From: Melioribacter sp.
Lineage (GTDB): Bacteria > Bacteroidota > Ignavibacteria > Ignavibacteriales > Melioribacteraceae
Length of the DNA stretch: 64,000 nucleotides
Assembly: GCA_003155655.1 (NCBI GenBank)
Contig: PMDS01000032.1
Location: 1-64,000 of the forward strand
Reading direction: 5' to 3'
Shown: in pieces, positions 51,530 through 63,552 of the stretch
Position numbering within the stretch: the first letter of the stretch is position 1
How the letters are laid out: every line of letters begins with the position of its first letter
The notes under the pieces: generated by a model
Told to the model about the DNA's origin: nothing
The model's database searches: none
The model's input: the letters and a program-made list of their open reading frames with translations, nothing else
Translations under genes and position numbers: made by a program

Positions 51530-54500
51530 ATGAACGACAATAATTTTAATGATCAAATTTATATTGATCAAATAACAAAAAGACTATGGTGTGGTAAAGA
51601 ATATGGTCATGCGGCAGTCATGGTAGGAACTGGTTTTAGTCGTAATGCAACACCGATTTCACCGTCATCAAAACCATTCCCGTTGTGGAACGATCTTACA
51701 AAGATAATTAAGAATGAATTATATGGCGCTATTAAAATTGACAATAACAATGCCTTACAATTAGCTGAGGAATATGTTTCTGCGTTTGGTCGTGAAAGTT
51801 TAAATAATATGCTGATCAAAAATATTCCAGATATTGAATACCAACCAACAGAAATTTTTGAATTATTGTTGACATTACCGTGGTCTGATGTTTTTACAAC
51901 AAATTATGACACTTTACTAGAAAGAGCAGCACAAAAAATATATCAAAGAAAATATAACGTTGTATTTACTCATACAGATATTCCAGTTCGGATTAAACCT
52001 AGAATTATTAAGTTGCATGGAAGCTTTCCATCTCATTTCCCTTTAATTTTAACGGAAGAAGATTATAGAACATATCCAAAGAAAATGGCTCCCTTCGTTA
52101 ATTTAGTCCAACAGTCATTGATGGAAAACATTTTTTGTTTAATTGGTTTTTCAGGTGATGATCCAAACTTTCTATATTGGAGTGGTTGGGTACGTGATTA
52201 TTTTGGTGAAAATACGCCTAAAATTTATTTATGTGGTTTACTTAATCTTAGCAATTCTAAAAGACAATATTTTTTGAATAGAAATATTATTCCAATTGAT
52301 TTAACACCATTATTCCCAAAAAGTAAATTTCCTGAAATAACTATTCGACAAAAGTTTGCCATTGAATGGTTTTTATTAAATCTTTTTTACGGTGCCCCGC
52401 CGAATCCATTACAATGGCCATACTTTAAAAAAAATGTTTTTCTAGCAATACAAAATGAAGACAAATTACCCCCTATTCACAGACAAGAATACAAAATTGG
52501 TCAAGAAAGTTTAATACCTTCTTTAAGTCAAGATAAATTGAAAGAAGAATTGACGAATCTGTTATTTACATGGTCGTTAATCCGTAAGAGTTACCCAAAT
52601 TGGATAATTATGCCTAAAGAATTACGATATCAAATATGGCAGATTACGGAACAATGGATTGAACTTATTATTGAAAATTTATCAATGTTGGATCAACCAA
52701 ACGATCTGTTAATAATATATGAACTTCTCTGGCGCTTGGATAAAGTATTTTTTCCATTAGTTGATACTTGGGTTGAACGGATTGAAAAAGTATTGTTAAA
52801 GTATATTCCTTTCCCTGAATTACTAGAGTCCCTTCAAATTGGTAAAATAAAAACGCAGGATGTAAAAGATATACAGCACATATGGATTGAAATTGTTTTT
52901 TCAATAATACGGACTTCTAGAGAAGATCAAAATATAAAGAAACTAAACTATTGGGTTGGTATTATAGAAAAAATAGCAAATCCTAATCCTAAATGGAGCA
53001 TGAGACTGTATTACGAAAAATTAATGAATTCACTATTTCATCTAGATTATGAGCAAGTAAGAAATTATTTAAAAGGTTGGCCTCAATATATTTATGAACC
53101 TTATTGGGAAATAAAACGTGCGGCATTACTTGCAGAGATAGGAGAAATTTCAGAAGCTGAAAAAATATGTGTAATTGCTCTTACTAGAATAAGAGAAAAT
53201 GTTAAAGATTTTGATAACGATTTTTATTGGGTTTCGTTAGAAAGTTGGGCAATGATTTTAACAAAGATTATTAAACAGAGTGTCTCTCCATATCAAGATA
53301 AGTTTGTGCAAGAATTTAACGACCGTTGGGAAAAATTAAATTCTTATAAGTGTAATCCTTGGAGCGAACTTGAATTTCTTTCAGCAAATGTAAAGTTACC
53401 AATGAAGATCTCTCCAAAAGGAAAACAAATTAAAAAATCATTTGATCCAGATATTAGTACAGTAAGTTTGTCGTTTTATTCTAATCTAAACATCTTTGAT
53501 TTTATAAATGAATTCTCGCTACTCAGATTATTTGAAGATGCTGCCATACCGTTTAGGTGTGGATATATAGTAATAAATAATGAAGAAATTAAAGAAGCAG
53601 CTATTAAAATTTATCCATTTTCTCCATTTACAACAATTATTAGTTTAATAAGGATTCAAAACAAAGAAGGTATTGAAAAAATATTTACAAGAGTTTCTAT
53701 AGCACAAACATCTCAAGAAGATATCGATAGAGTATGGAGCATATTTTATTCAAACTTAGAAAAACAACTAAAACACTATTCTGGGATTTATAAAAGTGAC
53801 GATAAAGGGCATGAACAAAATTTTGTTAAAAATTCAATATCAGTTTCATGCGAGATACTTTCAAGAATATCTTTCAGATTAGGGTTAGAAGAGCGTTCGA
53901 AATTATTAAAAGTAACTATATATTTATATAATACTTACCCGGATGATTTTTATGAACAAATAAATTATTTATTTATGAGATTATTGTATGCTGTTCAACA
54001 AGACGATTTACCTTCTATTATTGCTTCTCTTATTCAATTACCTATTCCAACAGTAAATGCATTTTTTATTGATATGCTGGGAGTAATAAGAGATCCCTTC
54101 GGATACATTGAAATAAAAAATATGCACACGATTCCATCCATAATTGGAATTTCTGAAAAAATTAACGAGCTAATTAACATTGCAAAAAATAATTTACATA
54201 TTGCTCGAGAAAGAGCTATAACAAGAATTGCTAAGCTTTATAATTTACATTTATTGGATAATAATCAAATTCAAGAGTTTGGTGAAGCTCTTTGGAAATC
54301 TGTCGATAGTGAGAATGGATTACCAATCGATACACCATTTTACTTCTTTGCATTTATTAACCTTCCTAGCCCAGAAGAGATTGATCCCAAATTAAAAATA
54401 AAAGAATATTTACTTAAAAATAATTTTGAACCATTGTTTAATATCTCCCCAGCAAAAGATGGGAAAATATCAAAATTATTTTCACCTGGAACTAAAGATG

Positions 54501-55402
54501 TATATGCATATAATCTTTTGAATTCTACAAGGCCCCTTTTTGAGGATGGAAATATTTTCTTAGATTGGACAATAGATGAAATTAATTTAATTGCACAGAA
54601 GGTAATTACTTATTGGGATACATGGAAAGATGATATAATTAATGTTATTAATGAGAAATCATATTATAATGAACAAGACCATATAATTGAAAGAATAAGA
54701 CAAATGATGGAAATCATTGGCCATGTTATTTTTCATTATTATAAAAGTGACAAAACTTATTTATTAAACAAACTAATAAATATAACTGAAACATTCGAAG
54801 AGAAGGGGATAGGGCTAACTAGAAATCTCCCATTTTATTTAATACAAAAACCAGAAATGGAAAATCATGTTGCATCAATAATTCGCAAAGATATGAATTC
54901 AATTTCGTTGAACAAAATACGTGATGCAATAGTTGGTCTTTTCTATTGGTTAGTCCTTTATTCACAAGAAAAAATTAAGGAACCACCTAAGGATATACTG
55001 AATGAATTAATTAATAGAATTGTTACGCGTCGCCAACCCGGTTTGGATGTTGCAATTAAACAAACGGCTATAATTTTTTGGAGAATTCCTTCAATAATAA
55101 AAGAACAACATATTAGTGACATAAGCATAGGTTTAGAGTATTTGTTAACTGAAACAAAATACGAAACTGATATTAATTCTTCTTCCGAGACTTTATCTGA
55201 TTTCTTTACTTTAGAAGAAATTCCTCATTATCGTGCTTTATGCTCTGAATTATCAAAACGAATTTATGATTATCTAACGGAACGTGATTTTATAATACCA
55301 GCCACCATTGATAAATGGAAAACAGAAGCTATTAATGATCGATTACCCGAAGTAAAAAAAATATGGTTAGAAAATACATCTAACCCCTCTCAAATAAAAT
55401 AA
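51530..55402 (+). CDS. Large SIR2-domain protein, probable antiphage effector
   Basis: The N-terminal ~290 of 1290 residues form a SIR2-like NAD-binding domain: MVGTGFSRNATPISP at 31-45, the catalytic-site motif TTNYD with Asn125 and Asp127, KLHGS with His163, and GFSGDDPNFLYWSGW near 207. The Asn and His are the residues needed for NAD cleavage in ThsA and DSR-type defence sirtuins. The other ~1000 residues read as helical repeat-like sequence, without a visible ATPase or nuclease motif, and would be the sensor. The gene is markedly AT-rich compared with its neighbours and stands alone with noncoding DNA on both sides. GGAG lies seven bases before the ATG. NAD depletion on infection is inferred from the family. 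Confidence 0.85.
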   Translation: MNDNNFNDQIYIDQITKRLWCGKEYGHAAVMVGTGFSRNATPISPSSKPFPLWNDLTKIIKNELYGAIKIDNNNALQLAEEYVSAFGRESLNNMLIKNIPDIEYQPTEIFELLLTLPWSDVFTTNYDTLLERAAQKIYQRKYNVVFTHTDIPVRIKPRIIKLHGSFPSHFPLILTEEDYRTYPKKMAPFVNLVQQSLMENIFCLIGFSGDDPNFLYWSGWVRDYFGENTPKIYLCGLLNLSNSKRQYFLNRNIIPIDLTPLFPKSKFPEITIRQKFAIEWFLLNLFYGAPPNPLQWPYFKKNVFLAIQNEDKLPPIHRQEYKIGQESLIPSLSQDKLKEELTNLLFTWSLIRKSYPNWIIMPKELRYQIWQITEQWIELIIENLSMLDQPNDLLIIYELLWRLDKVFFPLVDTWVERIEKVLLKYIPFPELLESLQIGKIKTQDVKDIQHIWIEIVFSIIRTSREDQNIKKLNYWVGIIEKIANPNPKWSMRLYYEKLMNSLFHLDYEQVRNYLKGWPQYIYEPYWEIKRAALLAEIGEISEAEKICVIALTRIRENVKDFDNDFYWVSLESWAMILTKIIKQSVSPYQDKFVQEFNDRWEKLNSYKCNPWSELEFLSANVKLPMKISPKGKQIKKSFDPDISTVSLSFYSNLNIFDFINEFSLLRLFEDAAIPFRCGYIVINNEEIKEAAIKIYPFSPFTTIISLIRIQNKEGIEKIFTRVSIAQTSQEDIDRVWSIFYSNLEKQLKHYSGIYKSDDKGHEQNFVKNSISVSCEILSRISFRLGLEERSKLLKVTIYLYNTYPDDFYEQINYLFMRLLYAVQQDDLPSIIASLIQLPIPTVNAFFIDMLGVIRDPFGYIEIKNMHTIPSIIGISEKINELINIAKNNLHIARERAITRIAKLYNLHLLDNNQIQEFGEALWKSVDSENGLPIDTPFYFFAFINLPSPEEIDPKLKIKEYLLKNNFEPLFNISPAKDGKISKLFSPGTKDVYAYNLLNSTRPLFEDGNIFLDWTIDEINLIAQKVITYWDTWKDDIINVINEKSYYNEQDHIIERIRQMMEIIGHVIFHYYKSDKTYLLNKLINITETFEEKGIGLTRNLPFYLIQKPEMENHVASIIRKDMNSISLNKIRDAIVGLFYWLVLYSQEKIKEPPKDILNELINRIVTRRQPGLDVAIKQTAIIFWRIPSIIKEQHISDISIGLEYLLTETKYETDINSSSETLSDFFTLEEIPHYRALCSELSKRIYDYLTERDFIIPATIDKWKTEAINDRLPEVKKIWLENTSNPSQIK

Positions 55403-55732: not shown

Positions 55733-56974
55733 GTGAAAGAGAAAAATCTTTCCCGCCGTCAATTCATTTTAAAATCCAGCCTGTTTGCAGCAGGAACCTG
55801 CATTTCGTTATCATCTTTTCCTGTTCTTGGAAAAGCATTTTCATATGTAAATAATGAAATACAGAGAGACTATTTACAGGATCTTTTAAGGAATGCACCG
55901 CGTGCGCGTTATTATATTTCAACAAATACAAAAAATGTTGACTGTCTTTCCTGTCACTCTTCCGAACAGGTTAAAGATCTAAAATATTTTGACCACGGAG
56001 AAAAAATTGTAAAATGTCTTTTATGTGCGCAAGGGTGCATAATAAAAGATAAAGAGCGCGGTAAGTGCAGGGCAAGAATAAATATTGATGGAGAATTGAA
56101 AAGTCTAGTTTACGGCAGACCGGTTTCCATCCATGTTGACCCGATTGAGAAAAAGCCGTTTTATCATTTTCTGCCGGGAAGCAGCGCTTACTCGCTTGCA
56201 ACTTCTGGATGCCCGTTATCATGCCAGTTCTGCCAGAACTGGGAAATATCACAATCTAAACCGGAAGATTTTTCAGTAAAATTTTACCCTGCAGAGGAAA
56301 TTGTTGCGGGCGCCAAATCACAGGATGTTCCTATTATCGCTTTCACATATAATGAGCCGACAGTTTTTACAGAATACATGCTTGACATTGCATACCAGGC
56401 AAAGAAAAATAATTTGAGAAGCGTTCTTATTAGCTGCGGATTTATGAACTATGAACCTCTGAAAGACATGTGCAATATTCTGGACGCAATTAAAATTGAC
56501 CTGAAAGGTTTCAGCGAGGATTTCTATCACAATGTTTGTTCTGCGGAACTTAAACCGGTATTAAGAAGCATAAAGCAAATTTCACAAACCAAAACTCATC
56601 TCGAAATTGTGAACCTGGTTGTACCCACGTTAAATGATTCGGAAAAGATGCTTACTGATTTATGCAGCTGGATAGCCGGAGAGATTGGTCCCGACGTTCC
56701 AATACATTTTACAAGATTCCACCCGGATTATAAACTTTTAAATCTTCCGCCGACGCCAATTTCAACATTAGAACGCGCCAGGGAAATTGCAATGTCTAAA
56801 GGAATTCATTATGCGTTTGTAGGCAATGTACCGGGACATGCAGGCAACTGCACTTACTGTCCTAACTGTAAAAAAATGATAATAAAACGCTCCGGTATGT
56901 TTACTGAAGAAATTCATTTGAAAAACGGACGGTGTGAATATTGCAGTAACCCAATTGCCGGCGTTTGGAAATAA
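55733..56974 (+). CDS. AmmeMemoRadiSam system radical SAM enzyme with Tat leader and CxxCH motif
   Basis: The 413-residue protein belongs to the PflA-like radical SAM group paired with Memo and AMMECR1. The SAM cluster motif is CPLSCQFC (Cys160, 164, 167). A Cys-rich segment precedes it (CLLCAQGC at 95-102, Cys112) and a C-terminal zinc-ribbon-like part follows (YCPNCKK, CEYCSNPIAGVW), both usual for the family. Unusual are a twin-arginine leader (SRRQFILKSS, residues 7-16) and CLSCH at 71-75, a heme c attachment pattern. The start is GTG; the ATG two bases earlier is followed by a stop. The reaction is not established for this system. It leads the run to the Memo-AMMECR1 gene. Confidence 0.88.
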   Translation: MKEKNLSRRQFILKSSLFAAGTCISLSSFPVLGKAFSYVNNEIQRDYLQDLLRNAPRARYYISTNTKNVDCLSCHSSEQVKDLKYFDHGEKIVKCLLCAQGCIIKDKERGKCRARINIDGELKSLVYGRPVSIHVDPIEKKPFYHFLPGSSAYSLATSGCPLSCQFCQNWEISQSKPEDFSVKFYPAEEIVAGAKSQDVPIIAFTYNEPTVFTEYMLDIAYQAKKNNLRSVLISCGFMNYEPLKDMCNILDAIKIDLKGFSEDFYHNVCSAELKPVLRSIKQISQTKTHLEIVNLVVPTLNDSEKMLTDLCSWIAGEIGPDVPIHFTRFHPDYKLLNLPPTPISTLERAREIAMSKGIHYAFVGNVPGHAGNCTYCPNCKKMIIKRSGMFTEEIHLKNGRCEYCSNPIAGVWK

Positions 56975-57222: not shown

Positions 57223-58752
57223 ATGAAAAAGATTTTTTGTTACTTAATTTTTCTTCTATTGGTATCTTCATGTAAGGGAGAGAAGCTTAACACAAATAAT
57301 TTTGAAGCCGACTCAACAAGACTGCCGGTATTTGCCAATCAATTTTATCCGGGAGATTCTTTAACACTTACCAAAGCAATCAAAACATTTATTGAAAATG
57401 CAAAACCCGCTGCTGCGGAAAATCCAATTGCAATAATTGTACCTCATGCGGGTTATATATTTTCCGGTCAGATTGCAGCAGATGCCTACAACCAGGTCAA
57501 AAATAACAAGTATGATGTAATTGTTGTTCTTGGTACAAATCATACAACAGCGGGGTTTACAAATATCGGCATTTACCCTCGCGGTGCATTTTCAACTCCT
57601 ATCGGGTCAGTAAAAATTGATGAAGTTGTCTCGCAGGAATTATTAAAGGAAGACCCGGATGTTACTGTAAATCTTGCCGTTCATTCAAAAGAACATTCAA
57701 TCGAAGTGCAAATTCCTTTTATAAAATATTTATTTCCCGGCGCGAAAATAGTTCCTCTTATTGTTGGGGAACCGGACATAAAAATGTGCGTAAAATTCGG
57801 GCAGACTCTGGCAAAAGCTCTAAAGAATAAAAAAGCATTAATTATTGCCAGCTCGGATTTGTCACACTATCCCTCTTTTGATGATGCGGTTAAGGTTGAT
57901 AACATCACACTTAAAACAATTACCGGGTTAAATCTTTCCGCAATAAGTTCTGAAATGCAAAAAGAAATGAATCAAAATATTGACCAGCTTGTTACATGTG
58001 CCTGCGGAGAAGCGCCAATACTGGCAGCAGTTGCATCGTCAAAAGAACTTGGTGCTAATTGCGGATCAATAATCAGCTACAGTAATTCCGGTTACAGCTC
58101 TGTTGGAAGCGCGGACAAAGTTGTCGGATACGGCGCTGTTGTACTTGGCGCAGGAAAATCATATCCACCGGCTGATGTTGACACATTAATGACCGATCCT
58201 TCTTATAAATTAAATTCTACCGATAAGAGAGCGCTTTTAAAATATGCACGGAAAACTTTGGAACAATATTTTTCATCACAAACACTGCCGCTTCCAAGGA
58301 ATATGAATCCGAAATTAAAAATAAAAAGAGGCGCGTTTGTAACTTTGAAAAAAAACGGCGAATTGAGGGGATGCATTGGACACATGGCAGAGACAACCCC
58401 GCTTTGTTCTGTTGTTGGCGCAATGGCTCTGCAGGCTGCGTTTAATGATTCCAGGTTTTCGCAGTTAACGCAAAATGAATTATCTAAAGTTGAATTTGAA
58501 ATTTCTGTTCTCACACCATTTATGCCTGTAAAAAATGCTGATGAAATTGTTCTTGGACGGGACGGTGTTGTTGTAAAAAAGGGAGAAAAGCAGGCTGTAT
58601 ATCTGCCACAGGTAGCCACTGAAACAGGATGGAGTAAAGAAATGTTCTTAGATCAGCTTTGTTATAAAGCGGGATTAAGCGCCGGAGATTGGAAAAGCGC
58701 AAAACTGTTCACGTTCCAGGCGGATGTATTTAGTGAATCTGAATTACATTAA
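57223..58752 (+). CDS. Memo-AMMECR1 fusion lipoprotein (AmmeMemoRadiSam proteins B and A)
   Basis: The 509-residue protein has a lipobox ending in Cys17 (LLVSSC). Residues about 35-310 are a Memo domain, related to class II extradiol dioxygenases, with putative metal His in IVPHAGYIFSG, LGTNHTT and AVHSKEHSIEVQ and the CGEAPILAA block. Residues about 325-505 are an AMMECR1 domain with the invariant LRGCIG (Cys384). The two are separate proteins in many bacteria. The leader predicts that both sit outside the cytoplasm. The 3' end overlaps the next gene by 29 bases. Confidence 0.9.
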   Translation: MKKIFCYLIFLLLVSSCKGEKLNTNNFEADSTRLPVFANQFYPGDSLTLTKAIKTFIENAKPAAAENPIAIIVPHAGYIFSGQIAADAYNQVKNNKYDVIVVLGTNHTTAGFTNIGIYPRGAFSTPIGSVKIDEVVSQELLKEDPDVTVNLAVHSKEHSIEVQIPFIKYLFPGAKIVPLIVGEPDIKMCVKFGQTLAKALKNKKALIIASSDLSHYPSFDDAVKVDNITLKTITGLNLSAISSEMQKEMNQNIDQLVTCACGEAPILAAVASSKELGANCGSIISYSNSGYSSVGSADKVVGYGAVVLGAGKSYPPADVDTLMTDPSYKLNSTDKRALLKYARKTLEQYFSSQTLPLPRNMNPKLKIKRGAFVTLKKNGELRGCIGHMAETTPLCSVVGAMALQAAFNDSRFSQLTQNELSKVEFEISVLTPFMPVKNADEIVLGRDGVVVKKGEKQAVYLPQVATETGWSKEMFLDQLCYKAGLSAGDWKSAKLFTFQADVFSESELH

Positions 58753-60946
58753 ATCAATTAAATTTACTCCCGGGTCAGTTTATTTATTTGCAGCCGGATT
58801 TATTTCAATTCTTGGGCAGGTTGTTGTTCTGCGTGAATTAAATGTTGCATTCTTCGGGGTTGAGCTAATCTATATTTTATCTTTAGGTTTTTGGCTGATT
58901 GGAACTGCAATTGGAGCAGCAGCAAGCCGGGGTTCAAATATTCCTAAAGAAAAAAACATTCGCACACTCTTTCTTATAACTGCAATAATTCTACTGATAG
59001 ATATAGTTTTTATCCGCGGGGTAAGAAATATTTTTAGCGGTGTACCAGGTGCATACCTTTCTTTTACCTATCAAATTATTGGAATGATAATATCATTATT
59101 GCCGTTTAGTTTTTTAATGGGGTTATTATTTCAATACCCGGCAAAATTGTTTGTGAGTAATGGAAGAACTCTTGCAAGGGCATATTCAATAGAAAGCGCC
59201 GGAGGAGTAGCCGGAGGGCTTGCATCAACTTTGTTTTTACATTTTGGCATGCAGAATTTTCTAACCGTTTTGGTTTGCAGTACGTGTTCCGTTCTTGCCG
59301 CATCGTATTACTCAAAACAATTAAATTTGAAAAGCAGAAAAATTTTTTCACTTACCGCGCTAATGTTTTTACTTGTACTGTTTGTATTCAATACTAAAAT
59401 TGATACTTGGCTTACATCCTGGAACCATCCTTCTCAAGTTGCATCAGAAGATACTCCTTATGGGCGTGTAACTGTAACTGAATCCGGAGAACAAATTTGT
59501 GTTTTTGAAAATGATGCGCTTACCTATGAGACAGAGGGTATTGCAGCAGAAGAAATTGTTCATCTTTCCACACTACAGACTGTAAAAATGGATTCTGTAC
59601 TTGTTCTTGGCGGCGGGTTTGAGGGAATAATTACAGAACTACTAAAATTAAATGTAAAAAAAATTGATTATGTTGAAATAAATAAAGAGTTACTTTCAAT
59701 CGTTAAAGAACACTTTCCTAATCAGGAGACTAAACCGTTAGCCGACACAAAAGTAAATATTATTTATGAAGATCCCCGCCAATATCTCCGGCAGGCAAAA
59801 AAGTATGATTTTATTTTGGTTGGAATGCCGGAACCAATGTCTGCCCAGAATAACAGGTTTTATACAAAAGAATTTTTTGAACAGTGTCCGGAAAATTTAA
59901 ACACGGGCGGAATTCTTGCATTTAAAATTGCATCGGCAGAAAATTTATGGACAAGACAGCTTATCGAAAGGAATAAAAGCATTTATGCAGCATTAAAATT
60001 ATCCTTCAATAATATAATTGTACTTCCGGGTGTAACAAATATTTTTATTGCTTCAAAATCAAAGTTAATAACAGATACAAAAATTCTTTCTGGAAGGTTT
60101 ACAGAAAGAAATTTAAACACGCGTTTGGTCTCTCCGCAATATATAAACTATCTATATAAAAATGACAGATTTGCCAGTGTGCAAAAGCTGCTTGAACTAG
60201 GTTCAGTTGAGGCAAATTCGGATTTTCAGCCAATTTCTTTTAACTATACAGTTTCAATATGGCTTTCTAAATTTATCCCCGGATTTGTAAATAACACTCA
60301 GCAATTCCTTAAAATCAGCAGTTACGAAAAATCACCTGTCTTCTGGGCACTGGTTATTTTTGTATTATTACTTTTTATTCTTGCCAAAAAAAGAATTGCA
60401 TTGGGGAAAATGGCTTTGGTCTTTTTTGCCGGTTTTGCGGGAATGATAATTGAGACAATTCTGATTCTGAACTATCAAAACAGGAACGGCGTATTGTTTC
60501 AAAATATCGGGATCCTGCTTATGTCTTTTATGCTGGGTCTTGCTTTAGGCTCATTGACCGTTGATGAATTTTTTGCAGATACAAAGCATCGTGCTAAAAT
60601 AAACCATTTAAATGGAACATTACTGCTAATTAGTTTTGCTGTTGTTTGCTTTATAATTTACATTTTTATTCAGTATAATTTTTTAGCAAATCTTGTTATA
60701 ACATCTTTAGTTCTGCTTCTTGCCGGCATTTTTGTAGCCGCAATTTTTGCATTTGTGAGCTTATATAAAGTTGCGGATAAACAGGCTGCAGTGACACAGC
60801 TTTATTCTGCAGATTTAGCGGGCGGCAGTCTGGGTTCTATATTGGCAAGTTTAATTTTGATTCCAATTTATGGACTTCCGGCGTCTATGCTGTTAATAAT
60901 AATTCTAATTTTATTTACGTCAGGTTTGTTTTTTAGAATGAGGTGA
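58724..60946 (+). CDS. Polytopic membrane protein with degenerate spermidine-synthase-like domain
   Basis: The 740-residue protein has six or seven membrane helices (about 10-225), a soluble Rossmann domain (about 240-450), and about six more helices (540-740). The soluble part matches spermidine synthase: LVLGGGFEGIITELL, YVEINKELLSIV, YEDPRQYL. The catalytic DxxDP is replaced by VGMPEP (Gly367, Glu370), so aminopropyl transfer is unlikely. Similar membrane proteins are often found next to AmmeMemoRadiSam genes. It overlaps the Memo-AMMECR1 gene by 29 bases; a GTG at 58733 is an alternative start. Function is unknown; SAM or nucleoside binding at the membrane is inferred. Confidence 0.85.
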   Translation: MYLVNLNYIKSIKFTPGSVYLFAAGFISILGQVVVLRELNVAFFGVELIYILSLGFWLIGTAIGAAASRGSNIPKEKNIRTLFLITAIILLIDIVFIRGVRNIFSGVPGAYLSFTYQIIGMIISLLPFSFLMGLLFQYPAKLFVSNGRTLARAYSIESAGGVAGGLASTLFLHFGMQNFLTVLVCSTCSVLAASYYSKQLNLKSRKIFSLTALMFLLVLFVFNTKIDTWLTSWNHPSQVASEDTPYGRVTVTESGEQICVFENDALTYETEGIAAEEIVHLSTLQTVKMDSVLVLGGGFEGIITELLKLNVKKIDYVEINKELLSIVKEHFPNQETKPLADTKVNIIYEDPRQYLRQAKKYDFILVGMPEPMSAQNNRFYTKEFFEQCPENLNTGGILAFKIASAENLWTRQLIERNKSIYAALKLSFNNIIVLPGVTNIFIASKSKLITDTKILSGRFTERNLNTRLVSPQYINYLYKNDRFASVQKLLELGSVEANSDFQPISFNYTVSIWLSKFIPGFVNNTQQFLKISSYEKSPVFWALVIFVLLLFILAKKRIALGKMALVFFAGFAGMIIETILILNYQNRNGVLFQNIGILLMSFMLGLALGSLTVDEFFADTKHRAKINHLNGTLLLISFAVVCFIIYIFIQYNFLANLVITSLVLLLAGIFVAAIFAFVSLYKVADKQAAVTQLYSADLAGGSLGSILASLILIPIYGLPASMLLIIILILFTSGLFFRMR

Positions 60947-61306: not shown

Positions 61307-61337
61307 AACGGGAACTGCGTAGCGGGTCCCGTTTTTT
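61307..61337 (+). terminator. Intrinsic terminator
   Basis: AACGGGA and TCCCGTT form a seven-base-pair stem around a 13-base loop, with a run of T immediately after on the plus strand. It separates the AmmeMemoRadiSam run from the convergent DUF3800 gene. Confidence 0.75.
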
Positions 61338-62068
61338 TATGGGATAATTACCAATCCATAACCCCGGTATTTGCCATTAGAATTCTTTCTAAATTTACTT
61401 TCAACTATTTCAAAATCTTTTTTAACTTTTTTCCCGATTATATATCTTCCTATCGGAGTTGCTGCTAAATCTGCAATTTGTAAGCCGGCAATATTTTCTT
61501 CTTTTTTCCTTATGAAAAACCCTTCAATATTTTCTTTAATTTCTTTTGATCTGATGAATCTTGTGCCGCTGATTTTAGTGTTTAAATAAGCAATTTCGAG
61601 CTGGTTATCCAGCAAACTATTTCTTGCCTCTGCAATCACAAAACCCTTTGAATGTGTTTCTCTCAACTCATATACAAATCTTTCTATTAAAACTTCCAAA
61701 CAAAACAGATACGGATCAATTGCTCTTATTCCATATCGATGTTTATATTCTTTCTTTTTTATTGCTGCCGCAATTACTTTAAAATCAATTCTGCTTAATA
61801 GATTGTTTGACTTTTCATAGAAATTATTTCTAAACTCCGTTTCCTTAAGCCTTTCAAATCCATTCTTATTTCTTGTTATATCAGCCGTATGCAGAATAAT
61901 ATTTTCATCCCCGAATAGCTCTATTTTAAAGTTTTTTAACTCATCCGTTAGTGTAGTGTTATGGCAATCCTCCTCTATTAAAACACCAGTTAATACAAAT
62001 ACAGGATATTGGTCATCTATCTGTATTAAATTATGATCGCCTGATTCGTCAATATAAAGTTGATACAT
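61337..62068 (-). CDS. DUF3800 protein, predicted RNase H-like nuclease
   Basis: The 243-residue protein begins with the DUF3800 signature YIDESGD (residues 5-11) and has the second acidic block GLQIADLAATPIGRY near residue 205, the two motifs that place the family in the RNase H-like fold. Activity is unproven for most members, but they are common in defence islands and mobile elements. AGGGG lies seven bases before the ATG. The SIR2 gene is upstream on the same strand with a 296-base gap, so the two may or may not form a unit. Confidence 0.85.
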   Translation of the reverse strand: MYQLYIDESGDHNLIQIDDQYPVFVLTGVLIEEDCHNTTLTDELKNFKIELFGDENIILHTADITRNKNGFERLKETEFRNNFYEKSNNLLSRIDFKVIAAAIKKKEYKHRYGIRAIDPYLFCLEVLIERFVYELRETHSKGFVIAEARNSLLDNQLEIAYLNTKISGTRFIRSKEIKENIEGFFIRKKEENIAGLQIADLAATPIGRYIIGKKVKKDFEIVESKFRKNSNGKYRGYGLVIIP

Positions 62069-62364: not shown

Positions 62365-63552
62365 TCAATGAGTGGACTCATTGTTTTTTTTAATATCAAC
62401 CACAATCATTTTTTTCCGCAAGTCGGATAGAAAATTATTTTCAATTATTTCATTGATCTTTGAGTCTCCGAATCCGTAACCGATTACAATTAACACTTGG
62501 GAGTTTATCAGATTATTTACAAAATGATTAATAATTGGTTTGTAGTAAACTTGCCGATAATAGTTCAATATTTTTGTTAATGTACCAGAAAGAAAATCTG
62601 GATATACTTCTGTATGACCTCTGTAATATTCTAGTTTACCTTTATCGTTTTTTATTTCTTTGAAGAGTTCATGATTTGAAATACCGTAAAGCAATTTGAT
62701 TGTTGTATATTCTTTATTCTCGTAGTTGAAAACATATTGATCAATGCTGCCGTGTAATTTGTATAAACAAAATTGACGTGAAAATTCATTTGTAAATTTT
62801 CGGAGTCTAACTGTATAATGTGCTACAGGTTCCTCAATATCATAATTATTTATTTTTTTATATAAAGTATGATAGCCGTAAAATGGAGAACCATATTCTT
62901 CAAATCCATCTGATAATTTATTACCAAGTGTTTCTGTGTGTGCAAATCTTTCCATCAGCAAATCATGGTTAAGCGAATGAATATGGACTTTATATTTATT
63001 TCCTAGACCATCTAACAATTCAAGAAATTCTGAATAGTTCCTTTGATATGGTCTAACCAAGGAAACTGGTTCAGGCCATTTGATTGAAAGAAGACTTGCC
63101 AATAACTGGCTGAAGGTATCATGAAAATTCAATAAGAAATTGTAATGGTCATATTCTTGTCCAGATTCTTTTCTGAAATCATCAAAAAACTTTTTGATTT
63201 TATCACTCAACTTGTCTGTTCGTCTCAACTCACAATAGAAATCGTAGAATTTTTCGTAATTGAATACTTCGCCAGCGATTATTTCATTATTATAAAACTC
63301 TAAGAATCTTTGAACAAAAAGTTTTTGTTCTTCTTTTGACCAAGAGTTCGGATCATCTTGCCCATTTAAAAACCATGCGCTACCACTTGTGTGAATATGA
63401 ATTGCGTTTTGATTGATTGCTTTAAGACAATTATTGATTTGTGTGGTTGGCGGATAACCATCAGGGATAGAAAAACCAGAACCTAAAAGAAAAGAGACGT
63501 GTTGAACTTTTGAAGTTCTAAGAAGTTTATTGAATAATTGAGACATAATCAT
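62365..63552 (-). CDS. SIR2-like domain protein, probable defence effector
   Basis: The 395-residue protein has the SIR2_2-type NAD fold: FLLGSGFSIPDGYPP (residues 21-35), the active-site variant SLNHDLL with Asn195, KLHGS with His267, and the C-terminal GYGFGDSKINEII near 360. Between the first motif and the active site lies a helical insertion of about 150 residues. It has no membrane segment. NAD hydrolysis or deacylation are both possible from the fold; stand-alone bacterial members are often found in defence loci. It is read away from the repeat block at 63611. Confidence 0.82.
   Translation of the reverse strand: MIMSQLFNKLLRTSKVQHVSFLLGSGFSIPDGYPPTTQINNCLKAINQNAIHIHTSGSAWFLNGQDDPNSWSKEEQKLFVQRFLEFYNNEIIAGEVFNYEKFYDFYCELRRTDKLSDKIKKFFDDFRKESGQEYDHYNFLLNFHDTFSQLLASLLSIKWPEPVSLVRPYQRNYSEFLELLDGLGNKYKVHIHSLNHDLLMERFAHTETLGNKLSDGFEEYGSPFYGYHTLYKKINNYDIEEPVAHYTVRLRKFTNEFSRQFCLYKLHGSIDQYVFNYENKEYTTIKLLYGISNHELFKEIKNDKGKLEYYRGHTEVYPDFLSGTLTKILNYYRQVYYKPIINHFVNNLINSQVLIVIGYGFGDSKINEIIENNFLSDLRKKMIVVDIKKNNESTH

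Follow-up and report, generated by a model that had tools for sequence, protein, structure and literature searches.

A Tat leader-bearing AmmeMemoRadiSam radical SAM enzyme with a likely heme c site, encoded in a gene set with a predicted envelope location

The window, a stretch of 64,000 nucleotides of DNA from Melioribacter sp., carries three neighbouring genes on its forward strand, coding for a radical SAM protein, a Memo-AMMECR1 fusion and a polytopic membrane protein. The radical SAM gene (55733-56974, +) starts with a GTG codon and encodes 413 aa; its translation begins MKEKNLSRRQFILKSSLFAAGT.... The product matched TIGR04337, the profile that defines the AmmeMemoRadiSam radical SAM family, with 365.8 bits (E 1.8e-109; curated cut-off for membership, 220 bits), and also matched PF04055. 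The genomic association with Memo and AMMECR1 that marks the family was found as well: the Memo-AMMECR1 fusion gene adjoins in the window, and likewise in relatives. By every test made the protein belongs to the AmmeMemoRadiSam radical SAM family, but as an exported variant.

The radical SAM motif, CPLSCQFC (C160-x3-C164-x2-C167; 56210-56233, +), was invariant in all 74 sequences of the family alignment, as was a four-cysteine site formed by C95, C98, C102 and C112 (56015-56068, +), a candidate site for a metal or an auxiliary cluster. C160, C164 and C167 were retained in 31 of 31 aligned rows of the clade described below, together with D256 and K258, which correspond to the D-x-K stretch in the aligned PFL-activating enzyme (PFL-AE). 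Since D256 and K258 are kept in all clade rows, the protein looks, from its residues, like a functional radical SAM enzyme. The best PDB fold match of its AF2 model (pLDDT 91.8) was PFL-AE (3cb8, E 7.7e-15, TM 0.80 on target). Four further cysteines, C376, C379, C401 and C404, were nearly invariant in the family alignment, and weak matches to zinc-ribbon profiles were common among family sequences.

The leader of the protein (MKEKNLSRRQFILKSSLFAAGTCISLSSFPVLGKAF) contains a twin-arginine motif, SRRQFILK, at residues 7-14 (55751-55774, +) and a hydrophobic stretch. Paired arginines were found in 36 of the 37 N-termini inspected, the remaining one having KR, and TatC was present in 32 of 33 genomes, the source genome included. 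A mis-assigned start that would fake a leader was ruled out: a TAG closes the reading frame five codons before the GTG, and relatives have the same leader. As a prediction, export of the enzyme is well supported.

Alignment revealed a clade-specific insertion, residues 62-86 (55916-55990, +), between the AxxW and VxCxxC segments of the family: columns 62-83 were empty in 43 of 43 non-clade rows, and columns 84-86 in most. The insertion holds CLSCH at residues 71-75 (55943-55957, +), a candidate attachment site for heme c with His75 as proximal ligand. C71, C74 and H75 were conserved in 29 of 31 clade rows; no other residue of the insertion was near-invariant. Just past it, seven residues before C95, lies His88 (55994-55996, +), a candidate distal ligand, which was kept in 30 of 31 clade rows. 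The residues between H75 and H88 vary, and the length of this loop ranged from 10 to 18 residues (in L014 the pattern took the second of two histidines). The preliminary description had reported the Tat leader, the CLSCH and, after them, the CxxxCxxC radical SAM motif; all were confirmed in the sequence. The analysis adds the distal histidine, kept in every CxxCH member, the operon with its exported products, and a second, leaderless set of paralogues elsewhere in the source genome.

When 84,980 species genomes were scanned, 31 loci (L004-L034) matched the window protein at 51-76% identity, in Ignavibacteriota, Bacteroidota, Thermodesulfobacteriota, Acidobacteriota, Electryoneota and MAGs labelled Deltaproteobacteria. 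These were aligned with 43 outgroup members (74 sequences), and a maximum-likelihood tree was built from the columns after residue 92 only, which left out the leader and the insert. The CxxCH proteins formed one clade with support 100/100. Mapping onto the tree gave one gain and two losses for CxxCH and one change for the leader, so that CxxCH appears to have arisen within a lineage that already bore the leader. Two later genome searches yielded 16 further clade members, 11 of which carry CxxCH and the same histidine. The CxxCH members total 40, from several phyla, and His88 was present in all of them.

The co-occurrence of leader and CxxCH, which had been put forward for checking, is borne out: the two are conserved together in a single clade that comprises 40 proteins or more. 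Their linkage holds in one direction only: no member was seen to have the CxxCH insertion and lack a leader, but the leader is the more widespread of the two and was also found in relatives devoid of CxxCH (L035, L037-L042, L046, L120, L121 and L123-L126).

The CxxCH module was lost in at least three lineages. L026 and L113-L116 have neither CxxCH nor the distal histidine; L027 has a deletion at CxxCH, yet a histidine is kept. Most members that lost the motif lost the histidine as well, and the two behave as a unit. In the clade member L097 (G127) YLKCH replaces CxxCH, only the first cysteine lacking and the distal histidine kept; this may be a site with a single cysteine, the result of a point loss, or an error of sequencing. 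Fortuitous C-x-x-C-H sequences were observed at the other cysteine site of the family in some cytoplasmic relatives (CTACH in L062, CLACH in L068).

A lone CxxCH in a cysteine-rich protein would be weak evidence. Chance was ruled out in this case by conservation in 40 members and by the coupled distal histidine, and conserved ligands in a variable linker would show the pattern of a bis-His heme c, or of a C2H2 zinc site. With CxxCH the window protein combines the axial candidate His88 and a leader, and proteins of the cytochrome c assembly type (PF01578) are encoded by 40 of 40 CxxCH genomes, versus 24 of 32 others; the genomes of L042 and L050, which have a leader-bearing enzyme and no CxxCH, contained none. 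As a discriminating test for heme PF01578 was dropped, since genomes that lost the CxxCH module also have it; its presence agrees with heme without settling the matter. No cytochrome c family was matched significantly: the best match, to the NrfB-like PF22678 (E 0.045, residues 63-98), was below the cut-off of that profile, which gave weak matches in 4 of the 74 family sequences. The protein was therefore not filed as a cytochrome c. On the conserved residues, a heme c at the CxxCH...H module is likely.

The alternative that fares best accepts that the system is exported and takes C-x-x-C-H...H as a structural site for zinc or another metal, electrons arriving by another route. Two cysteines and two histidines are able to bind zinc, and the lack of a significant cytochrome match would agree with this, but 40 members preserve the C-x-x-C-H spacing exactly while the residues around it vary. 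Zinc-ribbon-like cysteine sites abound in the family, C376/C379/C401/C404 among them, and so do weak zinc-ribbon profile matches; the module, however, is limited to leader-bearing members, as expected of heme c and not required of zinc, and every CxxCH genome has cytochrome c assembly-type proteins. We consider a zinc site unlikely.

The Memo-AMMECR1 gene (57223-58752, +) follows after a gap of 248 bases with a terminator-like stem, which counts against the reading proposed below. Its product, of 509 aa, has a lipoprotein-type leader (LLLVSSC) and scored 244.6 bits with TIGR04336 and 176.5 bits with TIGR04335, both above cut-off. A Sec or lipoprotein leader was found on the Memo-AMMECR1 neighbour in the 26 clade loci where both genes could be seen, and again in 10 additional clade loci fetched with their flanks. 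The leader status of the two genes agreed in 49 of the 51 loci in which both were readable: a leader was present on both in 41 loci (26 of the clade, 11 added with flanks, and L035, L039, L043 and L046), on neither in eight (L049, L057, L062, L068, L069, L074, L079 and L080), on Memo alone in two (L036 and L048) and on the radical SAM gene alone in none. Where the hydropathy threshold missed leaders these were counted by eye, and the loci are related, hence no probability is attached to the agreement.

In L036 and L048 a leaderless radical SAM gene lies beside an exported Memo-AMMECR1 and a SpeE-like membrane protein, and a search of the DNA upstream of the two radical SAM genes for a leader found none. 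Because of these two loci strict co-localisation is not universal; they suggest that the location of the enzyme can be uncoupled from that of its partner. Elsewhere the leader is nearly always of the Tat type on the radical SAM gene and of the Sec or lipoprotein type on Memo-AMMECR1, a split that would fit a radical SAM protein needing to fold around its cluster before export.

Additional Memo proteins were also observed. One, at L088 4282-5367 (C133 of the source genome, a little beyond the end of the window), is a divergent Memo that bears a signal peptide of its own and scored 83.8 bits. Comparable Memo proteins were seen in several of the genomes that have the exported system; the one in L090 lies about 9 kb from Memo-AMMECR1. 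A few genes downstream in L088 (7971-8747, -) lies a gene for a small exported protein with two CxxCH and TPR repeats, which matches the reaction-centre cytochrome c.

The third gene (58724-60946, +), which begins within the Memo-AMMECR1 gene and shares 29 bases with it, encodes a membrane protein of 740 aa with seven predicted TM helices, a spermidine-synthase-like domain and seven more predicted TM helices. PF01564 was found in 19 of 19 homologues. The AF2 model (pLDDT 88.3) shows 7+7 long helices, and the two seven-helix halves are homologous (hhalign E 1.5e-8). Family-averaged K+R counts in alternate loops were 19.0 vs 4.4; these positive-inside counts and the 7+7 helices place the N-terminus inside and the SpeE-like domain outside, so that this domain is predicted to face the periplasm.

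Spermidine synthases have an acidic residue in GGG(D/E)G and a catalytic DSTD-type motif. In the window protein GGGFEG and VGMPEP stand in their place, with similar replacements in relatives; the loss of the acidic motifs ruled out an ordinary spermidine synthase, the SpeE-fold domain being retained. The outward domain is predicted to bind SAM or a SAM-like nucleoside. A fold search with the protein returned the SpeE-like domain only, with no transporter among the best 50 listed. The third gene adjoins clade members and L035, L036, L046, L048 and L050, and was not found beside the leaderless cytoplasmic-type sets examined. Clustering turned up no further conserved neighbour beyond the three genes; what it gave were artefacts of overlapping frames and genes local to a lineage.

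Just upstream of the operon, at 51530-55402 (+), lies a gene for a DSR2-type SIR2 anti-phage defence protein (PADLOC Dsr2, 889 bits), probably unrelated to it. Downstream are genes for a DUF3800 protein (61337-62068, -) and a second SIR2-like protein (62365-63552, -), so that the operon stands between defence-type genes.

The source genome contains, in addition, a radical SAM copy that lacks a leader (C65, 505.7 bits), as well as Memo and AMMECR1 as separate genes, likewise leaderless (C108). Each of six other clade genomes checked also had two copies of the radical SAM gene, of which one lacked the leader (seven of seven with the source genome).

Radical SAM chemistry needs SAM and a low-potential electron donor, and both SAM and flavodoxin-type donors are cytoplasmic. 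The export signal, the likely heme site and the outward partners together suggest radical SAM chemistry in the cell envelope. Against this stands that neither SAM nor a low-potential donor is established in the periplasm. We assign a probability of about 0.6 to an AmmeMemoRadiSam system located in the envelope, with a Tat-exported radical SAM enzyme wired by heme c. Motif conservation, the insertion, the operon, the leaders, the predicted topology and the paralogue set were computed; from these we infer actual export, heme attachment, electron route, SAM supply and substrate, as follows.

The enzyme would fold and take up its iron-sulfur cluster or clusters in the cytoplasm and then cross the membrane by Tat; this order of events would explain the Tat leader on the enzyme and the Sec or lipoprotein leader on Memo-AMMECR1. 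In the CxxCH clade the N-terminal insertion would receive one heme c, with His75 proximal and His88 distal, beside the four-cysteine site. Most likely this heme would pass electrons from the periplasmic cytochrome pool to the radical SAM cluster, in place of flavodoxin or ferredoxin. It counts against this reading that the chemistry can do without the module, since the exported L026, L027 and L113-L116 never had CxxCH or lost it. The radical would act on an envelope substrate together with the exported Memo-AMMECR1, and the outward spermidine-synthase-like domain of the third gene would belong to the same pathway; this protein may act as another SAM-dependent enzyme, or help to bring the ligand into the periplasm. 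Its outward domain is the first place to look for a periplasmic SAM source. A complete periplasmic radical SAM pathway, which unites the exported heme-c-wired enzyme, periplasmic SAM, cytochrome electrons, Memo-AMMECR1 with the outward SAM-binding membrane protein and an envelope substrate, is more tentative, and we place it somewhat short of even odds.

The cytoplasmic location of SAM and flavodoxin-type donors would also agree with a Tat leader that serves as an uncleaved anchor or quality-control device, the enzyme staying on the cytoplasmic side or being loaded with SAM and used once before export. The preliminary description had raised retention by an uncleaved leader, and the window protein indeed has only a GKA-type cleavage site, uncounted by the strict A-x-A pattern; A-x-A-like sites, however, follow the leader in 32 of 37 members. 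The leaderless radical SAM genes next to exported Memo-AMMECR1 in L036 and L048 would suit an enzyme on the cytoplasmic side, but the CxxCH insertion arose in leader-bearing members only, each genome checked already has a leaderless cytoplasmic copy, and the partners, the exported Memo-AMMECR1 and the outward-facing third protein, point outward. Because of these neighbours and the cleavage sites of most members, export is preferred and an anchor appears distinctly improbable. A heme that switches the enzyme, as a sensor of redox state, NO or O2 or as a protective device, and does not serve as an electron wire to the radical cluster would accord with a dispensable module, lost by at least three lineages that kept the enzyme, but we judge this role quite improbable, given that the fixed seven-residue spacing to the invariant four-cysteine site suits short-range electron transfer and that both axial positions are seemingly filled by invariant histidine, so that a gas ligand could bind only if a histidine were displaced.

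To our knowledge, all characterised radical SAM enzymes work in the cytoplasm or in an organelle matrix, where SAM, flavodoxin and the means of cluster repair are close by. The literature searched, which omits most subscription journals, yielded no radical SAM enzyme described as exported or heme-bearing, and no account of the arrangement proposed here. If true, an exported clade with its own electron port would mean that radical SAM chemistry can run in the envelope, and would imply periplasmic SAM. Memo and AMMECR1 are of unknown function and are both linked to human disease; the exported set offers a tractable entry to what they do. Having left the cytoplasmic context, it should have an envelope component as its substrate, and its leaderless paralogues, present in that same cell, provide an internal control.

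Several known systems share parts of this arrangement. The bis-His modules of NrfB-like PF22678 also have C-x-x-C-H and an invariant later histidine, but the match is sub-significant and here a single site of about 25 residues is fused to a radical SAM enzyme. PFL-AE (3cb8) is the best fold match and its aligned D-x-K stretch is conserved; unlike it, the window enzyme has an extra N-terminal four-cysteine domain, the leader, the insertion and a zinc-ribbon-like C-terminal end, and no glycyl radical enzyme lies beside it. The third protein resembles NHMT, a fungal seven-TM methyltransferase that methylates secreted proteins and in which seven TM helices are followed by a spermidine-synthase-like domain with the acidic aminopropyltransferase residue replaced (PMC10349129); NHMT, however, is fungal, lacks a second seven-helix half and has neither a radical SAM nor a Memo partner, and the likeness is one of analogy, homology not being implied. 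Closest is AmmeMemoRadiSam itself, the association of Memo, AMMECR1 and radical SAM proteins that a passage of PMC7159879 credits to Burroughs et al. 2019: TIGR04335, TIGR04336 and TIGR04337 are all present and every invariant cysteine is kept. In contrast to the classic leaderless set, which is found elsewhere in the same source genome, the radical SAM enzyme and the Memo-AMMECR1 fusion described here both carry export leaders, one clade has the CxxCH...His insertion, and a 14-TM SpeE-like protein joins the operon.
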